Positions 27,952 through 63,342 of a stretch of DNA of 64,000 nt are shown here, one piece after another. The number at the start of each line of letters is the position of its first letter. Positions within the stretch are counted from its first letter, which is position 1. The position numbers were made by a program, and so were the translations under genes. Under the pieces are notes generated by a model. It was not told where the DNA came from. It saw only the letters and a program-made list of their open reading frames with translations, and did not search any database. Source of the DNA: Affinundibacterium amnicola (GTDB lineage: Bacteria; Pseudomonadota; Gammaproteobacteria; Burkholderiales; Burkholderiaceae_D); the NCBI RefSeq assembly GCF_014284275.1, contig NZ_JACOFU010000001.1, positions 186,001 to 250,000 of the forward strand, written 5' to 3'.

Positions 27952-28863
27952 TTAGAAACCTGCTTGCATGGACAGATACCAACCGCGTTGTTTTTTGGGA
28001 TTGAAAATCGTGATGTCACCTAGCTGAACGTAGGCAGCAGTGACTGAAAAATTCTTACTGGGGAAATACGCAATAAAGACATCTGAAAAATCTTTCTCAT
28101 TGTCTACGCCAAGATTACGAGGTTTCATCCGATATTCGGCACCGACAACTAACTTTCGGTTAATCAGATAAGCGATAGAGCCCTCGAGTTGCGCTTGGTA
28201 TTGATCTTTTTTATCACCACCAAAACCAAGTAATCCCATTTGATTTGCCTTGGTCATCCGCACGGTTCCATTGACCAGTAAGCTTTGTGCCAGATAAATT
28301 TTGGTAGCGGAGACATAGTAATCAACGCCGTGATCATCTTTGGCACCGAGTTGTTTGACATTCGTAATCCCCAACGCACCAAGGCCGCCAATTGTGGCAT
28401 CGCGTTTGTATTGCAGACCCGCGGCAATTTGTGGCATCCAGCCAGCTTGGTCATATACCGCATCACCAGCGAGTTTGACTTTGATGCCGAAAATGTCTTG
28501 TTTTAGATTGAGTGCATCTAGCGGTGCCAGACTGCCAGTAAATTCTTGTTGTGCCAATGAGAATTCGACACGATCAGCGATGCCTACTGCGACACCATAA
28601 GTCTTCAGACGATAATCTTGTGTATTGACTTGCGTGTAATGCGCGTTTGCTCCGTAGCTATCGCGAGTTCCATAACCGGTGATCAAAGCCCATGGCGTTA
28701 AACCGCCACCGCCAGCACCTTCCACCTGACTGACGCCTCCCGTCGCGGTGAGCTTGCCCATGTCCGGTAAGCGTGAATCTTGTGCCTGCGCGGTCGCTGC
28801 GGACATGCCTATACTCGCGATGGCGATAAGTTTGATTGCTGGGTGAGGTTTGAGCCTGATCAT
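27952..28863 (-). CDS. DUF3034 exported beta-rich protein
   Basis: A 303-residue protein with a signal peptide ending ATAQAQD. It matches DUF3034: an N-terminal GKLTATGGVSQVEGAGGGG stretch followed by alternating strands and a C-terminal GWYLSMQAGF, typical of outer-membrane or periplasmic beta-barrel proteins. The function is unknown. The start at 28863 is preceded by GGGAG. It is the first gene behind a directly visible ECF-type promoter at 28935-28965 and is followed by the truncated haemoglobin and a sigma factor. Confidence 0.82.
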   Translation of the reverse strand: MIRLKPHPAIKLIAIASIGMSAATAQAQDSRLPDMGKLTATGGVSQVEGAGGGGLTPWALITGYGTRDSYGANAHYTQVNTQDYRLKTYGVAVGIADRVEFSLAQQEFTGSLAPLDALNLKQDIFGIKVKLAGDAVYDQAGWMPQIAAGLQYKRDATIGGLGALGITNVKQLGAKDDHGVDYYVSATKIYLAQSLLVNGTVRMTKANQMGLLGFGGDKKDQYQAQLEGSIAYLINRKLVVGAEYRMKPRNLGVDNEKDFSDVFIAYFPSKNFSVTAAYVQLGDITIFNPKKQRGWYLSMQAGF

Positions 28864-28934
28864 ATTAACTCCCTGAATGTTTGATTGACGAGTCTTACTG
28901 AGCACAAAGTTGTGTTTCAAGCGACTGCTATTGA

Positions 28935-29024: not shown

Positions 29025-29374
29025 TAGGGCGTGTTGACATAATATTTTGGCATGCGAATGAGTCGAAATGGACACAGGGCTAGGCTATCGCTGAAGGAAA
29101 GCATCTTTACAAAGATGCTTCGTTGCGTCAGCGAGCAGCATGCTGCTCGAAACCCTGACTTCACCGTCAAGGCGCGCCGCAGTGCGAGTACTGTAAGCGA
29201 CTTGCAACAACGCCATGTGTCCATTTCGGCCATTCCCGAAGGGTTCTTGGCAAACCGCACGATGGACTGCGTTGCATCTCTTGCTGTGGCGGCCAGCCGC
29301 AGCGGTGAGATGCGCCTTGCCATCCCGCGGTTTTCCAAGAACGCATTGCCAAAATATTATGTCAACACGCCCTA
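29025..29374. repeat. Structured palindromic intergenic element, copy 1 (350 bp)
   Basis: The ends are inverted repeats of about 28 bp: TAGGGCGTGTTGACATAATA from 29025 against the complement ending at 29374. Inner stems are CGAAATGGACACA (29064-29076) with 29216-29228 (13/13), GTTCTTGGCAAACCGC (29243-29258) with 29327-29342 (15/16), and GCATCTC (29274-29280) with 29307-29313. About 80 bases not in copy 2 hold two further hairpins, including CGAGCAGCATGCTGCTCG. A related copy is at 52180-52447. Open frames inside it appear to be by-products of the repeat. Confidence 0.85.
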
Positions 29375-29432
29375 AGAAGCCATCCACGCTATTCGGCACG
29401 GATGGCTTGGTGCTCACTTAGTTAGAAATGGT

Positions 29433-30152
29433 TTAGCCTGTCTTGAGCCAGTTACCTTTAAATAGAATTGGACCACTAGGTTTTTCTGGATTACCCGAAC
29501 CACCTTTGGGTTCTAAACTGATGGCGAGTAATTGCGGTGTATCGCTATTGATTTCTGCCGGTAAGGTGATACGCAATACATTTTTATCTGCAGTGTCGCT
29601 AATCACACCGAGCGAGCGCACTTTGCCGTCTTTGGAAATAGACCACAGTTCTAAGCTTTTATCTGCTGCCAGTGTTGGCTTGTCAACGAAGCGAAGCAAA
29701 ATTTGATGATGTTTGACATCACTAGAGATCACTGCGATAGGGCGAGCCTGCTCATCAGATAGTGTTGCAACATATAAATCAGGTGCGACGTCGGGTTCTA
29801 ATGGCTTGATGACAAAAACCGCGAGCAATATCAGGGCAGTGCTGGCGATGACGCTAAAACTGCGCCAGAAATTGAGTGATTCCACAAAATCAAATAGCGC
29901 ATTCTTTCCTTGCGTTGCGCCTAACTTGAGTTGCTGTTCGATATTGCGCCAGACTTGTGCTTGCGGCACTTGTTTGCGACTAAATTCCATCATAGGCATC
30001 AGGTGTTGCTCCCATTCTCTGACAACTTGTTGTAAGTGTGGGTCATTGCTCAGCCAACTTTGAAAGCGGCGACGTGCGCCACCACGTAAAGTGCCGAGTA
30101 CATATTCGGCTGCCAGTTTGTGTTGCAGGCGCTTATTGTGTTGGAGATTCAT
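29433..30152 (-). CDS. RskA-type anti-sigma factor
   Basis: A 239-residue membrane protein of the anti-sigma-K (RskA) family. The cytoplasmic N-terminal part binds the sigma factor and starts HKLAAEYVLGTLRGGARRRFQSWL. One membrane helix lies near 97-116, followed by the periplasmic RskA domain with SLELWSISKDGKVRSLGVI and LAISLEPKGGSGNPEKPSGPI, which are typical. The start codon overlaps the end of the sigma-factor gene by 4 bases, so the two are coupled. It should hold its sigma factor inactive until an envelope signal triggers release. Confidence 0.9.
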   Translation of the reverse strand: MNLQHNKRLQHKLAAEYVLGTLRGGARRRFQSWLSNDPHLQQVVREWEQHLMPMMEFSRKQVPQAQVWRNIEQQLKLGATQGKNALFDFVESLNFWRSFSVIASTALILLAVFVIKPLEPDVAPDLYVATLSDEQARPIAVISSDVKHHQILLRFVDKPTLAADKSLELWSISKDGKVRSLGVISDTADKNVLRITLPAEINSDTPQLLAISLEPKGGSGNPEKPSGPILFKGNWLKTG

Positions 30153-34891: not shown

Positions 34892-35009
34892 CTCCTTCCC
34901 CTTCAAGGGGAAGGCTGGGATGGGGATGGGTTTCAGTCGTTTAATCTGTAAAATGATCATGCGACCAAAACCCATCCCCACCCTAACCCTCCCCTTGAAG
35001 GGGAGGGGA
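34892..35009. repeat. CCTTCCCC-type intergenic repeat, copy 1
   Basis: Two hairpins, CCTTCCCCTT/AAGGGGAAGG (34894-34914) and CCCTCCCCTT/AAGGGGAGGG (34988-35008), bracket the element. The inner arms GGGATGGGGATGGG and CCCATCCCCACCC also pair. Nearly the same sequence is at 63175-63290. It fills part of the 438-base gap before eno; the remainder holds a 7-bp hairpin at 35061-35079 (TCACCAA/TTGGTGA) and nothing else recognisable. Confidence 0.8.
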
Positions 35010-35271
35010 TAAAGACCTCAAGGGTGCAATTATGACTCTTGAGCGAACGATGAATTTTTATCACCAATTTTTTTGGTGAATTGTGGAAAAAGATAATCGC
35101 TTCAAAACCACACGTGTGTATTGAAGCTGAGAGTGATCGCAGACCCTTGAGAACATCAAAGTGTTTGCTGCGTTTTGACAAGCTCGTATCCGAATACTTG
35201 TGATTATCTGCACCACGAGCTAGCTCTGTTTTGAGCCTTGGTATTTTAATTGAGTTTTGATTGAATTTTGA

Positions 35272-50102: not shown

Positions 50103-52040
50103 ATGGGAAAAATGATCGGTATTGATTTAGGTACAACCAACTCTTGCGTCGCAGTGATGGAGAATGGCCAACCAAAAGTGATCGAAAACGTAGAAGGCGC
50201 GCGCACCACGCCATCGATCATCGCTTATCAAGAAGATGGCGAGATCCTCGTCGGTGCTTCTGCTAAACGTCAGGCTGTCACGAATCCAAAAAACACTTTG
50301 TACGCTGTTAAGCGTTTGATCGGTCGTAAGTTCGACGAAAAAGAAGTGCAAAAAGATATTTCTTTGATGCCTTACACCATTTCTAAAGCAGACAACGGCG
50401 ATGCATGGGTTTCTGTACGCGACAAGAAATTGGCCCCGCCACAAATTTCCGCTGAAGTTTTGCGCAAAATGAAAAAGACGGCTGAGGATTACCTCGGTGA
50501 AGAAGTAACAGAAGCGGTTATTACTGTTCCTGCTTATTTCAATGATGCACAACGTCAAGCGACTAAAGATGCCGGTCGTATCGCTGGTTTGGACGTCAAA
50601 CGTATCATCAACGAACCAACCGCCGCGGCTTTGGCTTTCGGTTTAGATAAAAAAGAAAAAGGCGATCGCAAGATTGCAGTCTACGATTTGGGTGGCGGTA
50701 CTTTCGACGTATCTATCATTGAAATCGCTGACGTTGATGGCGAAATGCAATTTGAAGTTTTGTCCACCAACGGCGATACATTCTTAGGCGGTGAAGATTT
50801 CGATCAACGTATCATCGACTACATCATCGACGAATTCAAAAAGATCAATGGCCTGGATTTGTCCAAAGATCCTATCGCTTTGCAACGTATTAAAGCCTCT
50901 GCAGAGCGCGCGAAAATTGAATTGTCTAGCTCACAGCAAACAGAAATCAATGAGCCATATATCGCGATGGCAAATGGCGCACCAGTGCATTTGAATTTGA
51001 AAATTACACGTGCTAAGTTGGAAGCTTTGGTTGAAGAATTGATCCAGAAGACCATGGAACCATGCCGCATGGCGATTAAAGATGCAGGCGTAAAAACCTC
51101 TGACATCGATGACATCATCTTGGTTGGTGGCATGACACGTATGCCTAAGGTTCAAGAATTGGTCAAAGAATTCTTTGGCAAAGAACCACGTAAAGACGTG
51201 AATCCGGATGAAGCGGTTGCAGTTGGTGCAGCGATTCAAGGTTCCGTATTGTCTGGCGACCGTAAAGACGTCTTGTTGTTGGACGTAACACCTTTGTCTT
51301 TGGGTATCGAGACTTTGGGCGGCGTGATGACGAAGATGATTCAAAAGAATACGACAATTCCAACCAAATTCAGCCAAGTGTTCTCGACTGCGGATGATAA
51401 TCAACCAGCGGTAACGATTAAGGTTTACCAAGGTGAGCGCGAAATCGCAGCACGTAACAAAGGTTTGGGCGAATTCAATCTGGAAGGTATTCCACCAGCA
51501 TCACGTGGCACACCACAAATTGAAGTGACTTTCGACATCGATGCGAATGGTATTTTGCATGTAGGCGCAAAAGACAAAGCGACTGGTAAAGAAAACAAAA
51601 TCACTATTAAGGCAAACTCTGGTTTGACTGAAGAAGAAATTCAAAAAATGGTGAAAGACGCTGAATTGAATGCGGAAGAAGATCAAAAAGTCAAAGAATT
51701 GGCTGAATCCCGCAATCAAGGCGATGCATTGGTTCACTCAACCAAGAAAGCTTTGGCTGAGCATGGCGATAAGTTAGATGCTGGCGAAAAAGAGAAGATT
51801 GAAGCAGCGATCAAAGAGTTGGAAGATGTCTTGAAATCTGGCGACAAAGCAGAGATCGACACCAAGCTCGGTAACTTGTCGACTGCATCTCAAAAGTTAG
51901 GTGAAAAAGTGTACGCCGATATGCAAGCACAACAAGCCGCTGCTGGCGGTGCAGCAGGTGCTGCCCCAGGTGCAGATGCGAAACCACAAGATGATGACGT
52001 GGTCGATGCTGACTTTAAAGAAGTGAAAGACGCTAAGTAA
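50103..52040 (+). CDS. dnaK: Molecular chaperone DnaK (Hsp70)
   Basis: A 645-residue Hsp70 chaperone. The nucleotide-binding domain has [19 protein letters not shown], the phosphate loop [13 protein letters not shown] and [16 protein letters not shown]. The linker [19 protein letters not shown] leads into the peptide-binding domain, followed by the helical lid. The C terminus has Gly/Ala-rich sequence and the [12 protein letters not shown] ending that is typical of proteobacterial DnaK. Full length and intact. It works with GrpE and DnaJ encoded on either side. Confidence 0.98.
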
Positions 52041-52058
52041 TACGGTCGTAAAAAAAGC

Positions 52059-52163
52059 AAACCTCTCAACACAGAGGCACAGAGATACAGAGTTGCACAG
52101 AGAAAGGCATAGTCTTACTCTTGTTTTTCTCTAAAAACTCTGTGCCTCGGTGTTGAGAGGTTT
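52059..52163. repeat. CACAGAGGCACAGAG-type inverted repeat, copy 2
   Basis: AAACCTCTCAACACAGAGGC from 52059, extending to GCACAGAG, pairs with the complement of CTCTGTGCCTCGGTGTTGAG ending in AGGTTT at 52163, with one mismatch over about 25 bp. It begins 19 bases after the dnaK stop and could form a long hairpin in the dnaK-dnaJ transcript. A shorter relative is at 39660-39716. Confidence 0.8.
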
Positions 52164-52179
52164 TGTTGTGAGATGAATC

Positions 52180-52447
52180 TAGGGTCTGTTGACCTATGTT
52201 TTAGGCAAGCGAATGCGCGCAAATGCGCACAGGGCTAGGCGCAAGCTGCGCGGCAGTGTGAACACTGTGAGCAGATTGCAACAACGGCATGTGCGCATTT
52301 GAGCCATTCCCGAAGGGTTCAATTCAAAACGCACGATGGACAGCGTTGCATCTCTTGCTGGGGCAGCCAGCCGCAGCAGCGAGATGCGCCTTGCCATCCC
52401 GCGTTTTGATTTGAACGCTTGCCCAAAACACAGGTCAACAGACCCTA
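52180..52447. repeat. Structured palindromic intergenic element, copy 2 (268 bp)
   Basis: The ends are inverted repeats: TAGGGTCTGTTGACCTATGT from 52180 against the complement ending at 52447, the only differences being wobble-type. Inner stems are CAAATGCGCACA (52220-52231) with 52290-52301 (12/12), GTTCAATTCAAAACGC (52317-52332) with 52401-52416 (15/16), and GCATCTC (52348-52354) with 52381-52387. A small hairpin CAGTGT/ACACTG is near 52254-52267. It is homologous to 29025-29374 and lacks about 80 bases of that copy. It ends 22 bases before dnaJ, inside the chaperone operon. Confidence 0.85.
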
Positions 52448-52469: not shown

Positions 52470-53591
52470 ATGGCGAAGCGTGATTTTTACGAAATTCTGG
52501 GTGTTGCGAAAAACGCCTCAGAAGATGAAATCAAAAAGGCTTATCGCAAGCTGGCGATGAAATATCATCCGGATCGCAATCCGGACAGTAAGACTGCGGA
52601 AGAAAAATTTAAAGAAGGCAAAGAAGCCTACGAAATGCTGTCTGACCCGCAAAAGCGCGAAGCTTATGATCGCTACGGTCATGCTGGTGTTGATCCTAAT
52701 ATGGGTGGCGGCGGAGGTGGTGGCGGTGCAGGTTTTGCCGATGCCTTTGGTGATATTTTTGGTGATATTTTTGGTGGTGGTCGTGGCCGCAGCTCTGGTC
52801 CACAAGTGTATCGTGGTGCCGACTTGCGTTACAACTTGGAAATCACTTTAGAGCAAGCAGCGAACGGTTTTGATACCACGATCCGTGTGCCTAGTTATGA
52901 CGGTTGCGATACTTGTCATGGTTCTGGTGCTAAACCCGGTACTTCACCTGTCACTTGTACCACGTGCGGCGGGCATGGTCAGGTGCGTATGCAACAAGGT
53001 CTGTTCAGTATTCAGCAAACCTGTCCTAAGTGTCATGGCACAGGCAAGATGATTACCGACCCATGTAATCCATGTAATGGTACTGGTCGTATCAAGCGCA
53101 ATAAAACGCTGGAAGTGAAGATTCCTGCTGGTATTGATAACGGCATGCGTATTCGTTCGTCCGGCAATGGTGAACCTGGAATTAACGGTGGTCCTCCGGG
53201 GGATTTGTATGTGGAAATTCATATCAAACCACATCAGGTATTCCAACGCGAAGGTGATGATTTACATTGTGAAATTCCAATTTCCTTTGTTAAAGCGGCC
53301 TTAGGTGGCGATATCGAAGTGCCGACTTTGAGTGGTAAAGCCAGTTTCACGATTCCTGAAGGTACACAATCGGGTAAGACTTTCCGTTTGCGTAGCAAAG
53401 GCGTGAAGGGCGTACGTTCTGGTTATGCTGGCGATTTGTTCTGTCACGTTGTGATAGAGACGCCAGTAAAATTAACTGAGAAGCAAAAAGACTTGCTACG
53501 TAGCTTTGAACAACTGACCACAGAAGGTGGTTCTAAGCACAGTCCACAGAGTAAATCGTGGATGGAAAAAGTGAAAAAGTTTTTTGAGTAA
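52470..53591 (+). CDS. dnaJ: Co-chaperone DnaJ (Hsp40)
   Basis: A 373-residue type I J-protein. The J domain (1-70) contains the HPD motif in MKYHPDRN. A glycine-rich linker (GGGGGGGG near residue 80) follows. Four zinc-finger repeats are visible as [24 protein letters not shown] and CNPCNGTG, and then the substrate-binding C-terminal domains. It stimulates the DnaK ATPase. An AAGGTG ribosome site lies between the repeat element and the ATG. A terminator follows at 53612. Confidence 0.98.
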
Positions 53592-63097: not shown

Positions 63098-63174
63098 TGT
63101 TTGGAAATTTGAAGTACTGGTGCAACCCGCGCCGCCAAACCGCCGTGCAAGCTTTATGGAATTTGTGCTGTTAA

Positions 63175-63290
63175 CTCCTTCCCCTTCAAGGGGAAGGTTG
63201 GGATGGGGATGGGGTTTGGTCGAAAACTTGCGGTTTGTTCGGGGAAAGAAAACCCATCCCCACCCTAGCCCTCCCCTTGAAGGGGAGGGA
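63175..63290. repeat. CCTTCCCC-type intergenic repeat, copy 3
   Basis: CTCCTTCCCCTTCAAGGGG from 63175 and CCCTCCCCTTGAAGGGGAGG near 63270-63289 each form hairpins, and TGGGATGGGGATGGG pairs with CCCATCCCCACCC. It is nearly identical to 34892-35009 apart from the loop. It separates the TIGR02450 gene from the SDR gene. Confidence 0.8.
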
Positions 63291-63342
63291 ATCTGATGCA
63301 CATTCCAACTGAAATTTCACATATCGATAAAAGGTCTACACC

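Follow-up and report, generated by a model that had tools for sequence, protein, structure and literature searches.

We found that two palindromic stretches in the window (the whole stretch of 64,000 nucleotides that was analysed) are two copies of one element, and that both contain a 64-nt core hairpin which is kept in at least three bacterial phyla within elements whose ends are unrelated. A preliminary description, made from the sequence alone, had proposed that the fold of the element is under structural constraint. This is supported by covariation beyond shuffled and slid controls and by the cross-phylum core, with the reservation that relatedness has not been fully removed. In Undibacterium, the host genus, the elements resemble MITEs that belong to IS5-type insertion sequences (ISs), an assignment which the evidence supports, and their mobilisation in trans by IS5-type transposases is inferred and probable. 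The optional 79-nt insert and the extension of the core hairpin far outside the genus go beyond what had been described before.

The features of both copies are listed in Table 1. The homology of the two elements, which had been claimed before, held at these coordinates (82% over 187 nt and 77% over 62 nt), and the shared words named in that claim are present. The claim that the stems co-vary also held with small exceptions, the arm pair around TTCTTGGCAAACCGC having one mismatch in each copy. The main difference between the 350-nt copy and the 268-nt copy is the 79-nt insert, the presence of which varies among copies. We read the left hairpin domain of copy 1 as an inverted, diverged second core; this homology rests on a motif (GGCTAGGC...GCAACAACGCC) and not on a model hit. 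The left hairpins of the window copies gave no covariance-model match, and only the right, minus-strand core was detected in them. In the mini-hairpin between the two domains, the middle three bases are variable, while CCC and GGG are invariant in the 22 copies of alignment A5.

Table 1. Positions of the two copies, their parts and their neighbours in the window
Feature	Position	Strand	Remarks
Copy 1	29025..29374	.	long form, 350 nt, TA at both ends
Copy 1, left terminal inverted repeat	29025..29052	+	TAGGGCGTGTTGACAT...; end family as in Undibacterium ISs
Copy 1, left hairpin domain	29053..29234	+	
Copy 1, optional structured insert	29086..29164	+	79 nt, inside the left hairpin
Copy 1, mini-hairpin CCCGAAGGG	29235..29243	+	between the two hairpin domains
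Copy 1, core hairpin (right domain)	29262..29325	-	model R1, 69.4 bits
Copy 1, right terminal inverted repeat	29347..29374	-	
Copy 1, neighbouring ORF	29433..30152	-	
Copy 1, neighbouring ORF	27952..28920	-	longest reading
Copy 2	52180..52447	.	short form, 268 nt; in the gap between dnaK (50103-52040) and dnaJ (52470-53591)
Copy 2, left terminal inverted repeat	52180..52211	+	TAGGGTCTGTTGACCT...
Copy 2, core hairpin	52336..52399	-	model R1, 72.7 bits
Copy 2, right terminal inverted repeat	52416..52447	-	

Both copies, as elements of 268-350 nt, meet the MITE criterion of carrying no transposase gene. The largest ORF inside copy 1 (107 aa, 29052-29375) runs through the stems, and no domain search was made on it; copy 2 has no ORF of 100 aa or more. 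The genes flanking copy 2, which we take to be dnaK and dnaJ, were read from the sequence without a domain search, and the ORF at 29433-30152 is taken to encode an anti-sigma factor from the look of its sequence, likewise without a domain search. A BLAST search of the window's own genome returned 26 pieces of the element, of which many were parts of a single copy. Matches to the element were found in 25 of 35 other genomes of the genus. Outside the genus but within the order, all 24 genomes searched were without a match. A search of plasmid DNA returned nothing similar to the window copy; two other elements had one and two similar plasmid records, respectively, which were unannotated where matched. 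In addition, two Undibacterium genomes (loci L062 in G031 and L063 in G034) hold a separate palindromic element with a relative of the 79-nt insert. The ends of the L062 element (AGGACTTACGCAAAGCCG) are unlike those of copy 1. The relative of the insert sits within an apparent CAAGGC...CAACGC hairpin when judged by eye, and model R2 finds no core there.

The folding of both copies is far from that of shuffled sequence (z = -13.7 for copy 1, with 0 of 100 shuffles as good, and z = -14.2 for copy 2, with 0 of 200). Furthermore, paired change is general and not a property of these two copies only, since it is seen in alignment A5, which holds 22 full-length Undibacterium copies from 18 genomes and excludes long-form and partial copies. 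The RNAalifold structure of A5 has 103 pairs, and a standard pair is formed in 96.7% of cells. Sixty pairs changed on both sides, compared with 37.5 in column shuffles and 8-19 in slid controls, in which the 3' partners were displaced by 1-3 columns. Cells with two-sided change numbered 340 (105.5 in column shuffles and at most 43 in slid controls), and the covariation score was 0.425 (0.150 and at most 0.071, respectively). Two-sided changes were far more numerous than one-sided ones, and the outer arms (helix 1) co-varied as strongly as the inner arms, with two-sided change in 19 of 29 pairs. In alignment A3, which comprises 28 pattern-chosen cores, the covariation score was 0.298 against 0.125, and both the score and the paired cells beat all shuffles; the number of pairs with two-sided change (12 vs 10.3) was not clearly above the shuffles of A3, 43 of 500 being as high.

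The shuffled and slid controls do not fully remove relatedness, and no tree-based test such as R-scape stands behind the covariation. Two outcomes would have refuted the constraint, namely a lack of covariation beyond phylogeny or an origin of the differences by independent inverted duplications; they were tested in part only, without a tree-based method. Independent duplication is disfavoured because the loops are conserved while the stems change, and because the hairpin is common to elements with unrelated ends. The letters of the internal loops (CAAGGCG, CAACGC, and AAG) are kept across phyla, while the stems turn over. Some of these letters were fixed by the seed search pattern, but the model hits in 398 Pseudomonadota genomes were not so chosen.

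In support of the earlier suggestion of a MITE-like element, there is one empty site showing a duplicated TA, and there are YTAR flanks and ends in common with IS5-type ISs. The preliminary description had also proposed a check for empty sites in related genomes, and one was found: the relative G010 has an empty dnaK-dnaJ site (GATGAATG-CTAA-TTAAAAC), while the occupied site in the window reads GATGAAT-CTA[element]TAA-CTAAAAC. Thus, the comparison of the two sites indicates a TA duplication at a YTAR target. Among 30 Undibacterium elements examined, 21 had TA at both ends, and 19 of these 21 had Y before and R after. A TA flanking repeat was also seen in 20 of 32 Undibacterium elements of end type B and in 3 of 6 elements of G450. 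In G442, a 3-bp repeat of the form TNA stood on both sides of 20 of the 27 elements; for the Acidobacteria elements, the TNA count was 4 of 7. The 12 elements of G277 were mixed (6 TNA and 2 CTAG). No flanking repeat was found for 12 of 21 G228 elements and for 28 of 45 elements of the Vicinamibacteria set, whose ends were loosely paired. TA/YTAR and TNA are targets of different groups within the IS5 family, for which the groups IS5, IS427, IS1031, IS903, and ISL2 have been named (PMC12730594, PMC3196728).

The same end family was carried by 7 of 11 IS5-type loci of Undibacterium, with the ends 757-876 bp apart and at most three mismatches. One of the 11 loci (L055) had been picked by its ends and the other ten by transposase similarity. 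The fit was clear in L055, L178, L180, L184, and L188 and loose in L179 and L181, and it should be noted that a short motif from another lineage produced chance pairs in the scan too. The transposase of L055 has the DDE domains PF01609/PF13586 (Pfam). In the window's own genome, there was no match to PF13586, PF01609 or an IS5-type query. Therefore, the copies there are remnants, or they are mobilised by an enzyme that was not recognised. An autonomous element was sought in G442 (one contig, with GAACGTGTTTACGATC ends) and not found: the 38 facing end pairs all lay 32-263 nt apart, start to start, and included no IS-length copy, while 15 ends were unpaired (counted by eye).

The idea that the core is part of the parent ISs was rejected for the loci tested, as model R2 found none in 26 DDE-transposase/IS5-type loci (best 13.2 bits, E 0.37). 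This search addressed the core only and not the whole interior. Many MITEs retain only the ends of their IS; thus, ISs without a core do not exclude the elements from the MITE class.

The layout of the core is 5'-CAAGGCG - stem - YGCNG - stem/loop - AAG - stem - CAACGC-N-G-3'. A pattern of its conserved letters matched at least 110 stretches (one genome per species), including stretches in Nocardioides, Propionibacteriaceae, Vicinamibacteria and other Acidobacteria, Thiocapsa, Herbaspirillum, and Glaciimonas. The carriage of the core by Nocardioides and Propionibacteriaceae brings the bacterial phyla to at least three. The span was 61-64 nt in 107 of the 110, 60 nt in L175, 54 nt in L082, and 72 nt in L161; the last, from Enterovibrio, was dropped as a chance match since its flanks did not fit. 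The cores of alignments A1-A3 came from the exact pattern, and so GGACNGCGTTG and CGCCTTGCCAKCC are invariant in them by construction; A3 leaves out L082 and L102 of A1.

Two covariance models were used, R1 with 28 seeds and R2, a second model, with 99 matches. With R1, 35 of 398 Pseudomonadota genomes were positive for the core (one of the 35 being the window's own), and so were 29 of 213 genera. In the phylum to which the Acidobacteria MAG G453 belongs, R2 was positive in 56 of 247 genomes, and two of these 56 (G453 and G467) had been preselected. In addition, all 20 genomes reached through pattern loci were positive with R2, with 1 to 108 matches each; these 20 had all been chosen for having the pattern, and the two surveys used stricter filters. 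The background of the models was low, with one match (E 0.14) in 91,441 bases and two (best E 0.37) in 89,109 bases. Core-bearing palindromic elements were observed in other proteobacteria at L225, L240, L251, and similar loci (G277, G442, and G450).

Where the flanks outside Undibacterium were read, they were inverted repeats unrelated to the Undibacterium ends, and the core was found with unrelated ends and with differing target duplications (TA, CTAG, and TNA). The ends differ and the core stays; read plainly, this means that the core does not depend on a single transposase.

The core appears to match no catalogued RNA family. Rfam 15 gave no match at gathering score on the elements of the window, and at a relaxed threshold nothing at the other loci came near the gathering score on an element. 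The relaxed search found a TPP riboswitch and a tRNA elsewhere in L109. The best match on an element, P33 (24.1 bits against a gathering score of 45), was treated as chance, and a likeness of the AGUC loop to the hairpin ribozyme was dropped because there was no Rfam match. No description of the core was found in the open-licence literature that was searched, subscription journals and preprints being outside its scope. The most conserved 12-mer of the core, GCCTTGCCAGCC, is present in many relatives. We take it to be identical to part of the 454 sequencing adapter B, and its literature matches look like sequencing primers; this identity is likely to be a coincidence.

Which strand folds was studied through the balance of G-T and A-C among imperfect pairs and through folding energy. 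Alignment A4 holds 89 distinct cores that were selected and aligned by the model, and its pair counts hence lean towards structure. Its paired cells, in model orientation, contained 66 G-T and 20 A-C, compared with 134 and 112 after shuffling; the seeds alone gave 14 and 9. In A5, the G-T:A-C counts on a plus-strand reading were 8:6 for the end stem, 22:3 for the left hairpin, and 10:20 for the right hairpin. This polarity gave a Fisher P of 8e-5 on cells and of 0.14 on columns, and the counts are not independent. Furthermore, the counts omit three pairs whose commonest pair is G-T (non-Watson-Crick), and when these are restored, the left becomes 52:3 and the right 22:20, so that the right side is left without polarity. 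Folding energy pointed to the minus strand for 77% of the 101 right cores that had been chosen by pattern. In A4 it favoured the model strand for 64 of the 89 cores, and in A5 the plus strand for 19 of the 22 left hairpins. No energy preference was seen in A5 for the ends or for the right hairpin (11 minus and 10 plus of 22).

Taken at a moderate strength, this evidence indicates selection on the single-stranded fold of each hairpin, in each case on the strand of that hairpin, and it does not separate RNA from single-stranded DNA. With the same reserve, the left hairpin and the cross-phylum set make the better case, and the right hairpin of the Undibacterium elements makes the weaker one. That the fold acts as RNA, one of the options raised in the preliminary description beside DNA or a cruciform, is suggested by the strand-specific G-T bias and not proved; it is inferred, without transcription data.

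The cores occur in a regular arrangement. In 83 loci searched with R1, all 13 close core pairs faced each other, the first on the plus strand and the second on the minus strand, with starts 101-113 nt apart (identical places counted once). In a subset of the R2 matches from the 20 genomes, 16 of 17 close pairs were facing, 15 of these 16 in G464; the sole exception, in G452, had two cores on one strand, 178 nt apart. With respect to genes, 70 of 109 cores could be classed (34 tandem, 20 convergent, and 16 divergent), and the comparison gaps, obtained with a naive ORF caller, were 269, 107, and 94. Among the 109 cores, 39 overlapped an ORF of at least 90 aa and 39 were without a neighbour on one or both sides. 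No clear enrichment in any gene arrangement was seen among the 70 classed cores, and a role as terminator or insulator between convergent genes was set aside on this ground.

Several known repeats resemble the element in part. The RUP element of pneumococcus is a MITE tied to IS630-Spn1 with a TA target (PMC2229807). Like RUP and other IS-family MITEs, our elements are short and gene-less, share their ends with full ISs, have a TA duplication and occur in many copies. However, the Undibacterium ends match IS5-type ISs, the core was not found in the ISs tested, and it is common to elements with unrelated ends across phyla. NEMIS with RNase III and ERIC with RNase E are MITEs whose transcripts are proposed to act on neighbouring mRNA (PMC2229807). 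NEMIS/Correia and ERIC are likewise palindromic, and they are transcribed and proposed to steer mRNA processing; however, they come from Neisseria and enterobacteria, and no counterpart of the core was found in the sections of PMC2229807 that bear on them. The alpha-proteobacterial Caulobacter CIR (about 110 bp, with conserved GANTC methylation sites) is only partly MITE-like (PMC2229807). It shares with our element two hairpin arms with a linker, kept between species; no conserved GANTC was visible in A4 and A5 by eye, without a dedicated scan. REPs are palindromes of 20-40 bp tagged with GTAG or CGTC (PMC3733652; for REP, BIME and REPIN also PMC2817692). REP, BIME and REPIN have hairpins in inverted pairs and a high copy number in common with our elements. 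In contrast to REPs, the core is 54-64 nt long with internal loops, lies within long inverted repeats and was not found beside RAYT genes in the loci tested.

Other features were also observed in the window and its genome. A second, unrelated hairpin (CTCTCAACACAGAGGCACAGAG...CTCTGTGCCTCGGTGTTGAGAG) lies at 52053-52165, just upstream of copy 2. In several other Undibacterium species, the junction of dnaK and dnaJ holds hairpins of this type whose arms have changed and still look complementary, and many similar pieces are present in G016. Another palindromic repeat (CTCCTTCCCCTTCAAGGGGAAGG...CCCTCCCCTTGAAGGGGAGGG) has two copies 28 kb apart, at 34892-35010 and 63163-63292. The only Rfam match in the window is a cobalamin riboswitch at 1-206 (46.4 bits), the 5' end of which is cut by the window edge. 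The window's own genome (G000) has nine matches to Y1_Tnp (RAYT-like), on contigs C6, C12, C23, C27, and C28, several of them broken or partial.

Our best explanation joins two parts: the elements are MITEs moved by IS5-family transposases, and their core hairpins act as folded RNA in transcripts. As a whole, we consider it no more likely to be right than wrong. In this explanation, IS5-family DDE transposases would cut and join the outer inverted repeats in trans at YTAR or TNA sites. The interior would consist of two hairpins in inverted orientation, built round the conserved core. The core probably serves the element itself because it is conserved independently of the ends and across phyla. 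By the reading with the best support, each hairpin would act as a single strand that folds, the simplest candidate being RNA from read-through transcription of the host operon, dnaK-dnaJ for example. Because the pair is inverted, an insertion in either direction would leave one hairpin correctly oriented. The internal loops may be recognised by a host RNase or by some other protein that binds RNA, and by this inferred role the mRNA would be processed or insulated and insertions would be tolerated. Against the RNA part, it can be said that single-stranded DNA would tolerate G-T too, and the RNA role is inferred without transcription data. Against selection, the excess of two-sided over one-sided changes could possibly reflect correction by template switching.

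A possible alternative is that the core works as DNA. A transposase or a host factor would bind it in the form of a cruciform or of single-stranded DNA, which would aid transposition or escape from repair, and the need to fold would lie with DNA strands and not with transcripts. In favour of it, the whole element is palindromic, so that both strands fold. In addition, the outer arms co-vary as recognition by a transposase requires and show no G-T polarity (8:6). DNA, too, tolerates G-T, and core matches reach 108 per genome. However, the absence of R2 matches from the 26 DDE/IS5-type loci means that those elements seem not to need the core. Furthermore, polarity differs between the hairpins of one element (with the caveat of the left-out pairs), which the folding of a whole DNA strand does not predict.

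A mutational origin, in which intra-strand template switching at replication corrects one arm of a palindrome from the other, is unlikely. It would agree with the 340 two-sided cells, with 96.7% of cells paired, with the large excess of two-sided over one-sided change and with outer arms that co-vary as strongly as the inner ones (helix 1, 19/29). However, asymmetric internal loops are conserved across phyla, while correction alone keeps only the complementarity of the arms, and the G-T bias in the hairpins also speaks against it.

The last alternative, in which the element is a REP doublet (REPIN) of giant size and a Y1 transposase (RAYT) moves it, is very unlikely. It would fit the two inverted hairpins of each element, the commoner Y1_Tnp matches in core-bearing genomes (27/35 vs 213/398 overall, matched by eye), which led us to consider RAYT as the mobiliser, and the four core-bearing genomes without a PF13586 or PF01609 match (the window's own, G277, G442, and G281). 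However, RAYT was rejected because a search of 29 Y1_Tnp loci in 12 genomes gave no core at E <= 0.01 (best 14.8 bits, E 0.14). Furthermore, the ends of the elements are long inverted repeats, accompanied by TA or TNA duplications, and no GTAG/CGTC tag was seen by eye in the aligned elements, whose core has 54-64 nt.

To return to the reading of IS5-moved MITEs with RNA hairpins, a bolder form of it can be proposed, on which we lean slightly towards doubt. In this form, the inverted hairpin pair inside these MITEs would be an undescribed mobile RNA module that crosses phyla, has invariable internal loops and a fold that outlasts changes of its sequence, is not tied to one transposase and acts in host transcripts independently of orientation.

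MITEs are usually seen as leftovers of ISs in which little but the ends is conserved. Here, we see the reverse of this usual view, as the ends differ and the interior is conserved in at least three phyla. If the core acts as RNA, it would be a device that can be carried into host operons (dnaK-dnaJ, for example), and its binding partner could be found. If it acts as DNA, transposition would have a new requirement or a new helper. Either way, the question can be put to a direct test with the covariance model and the empty site.
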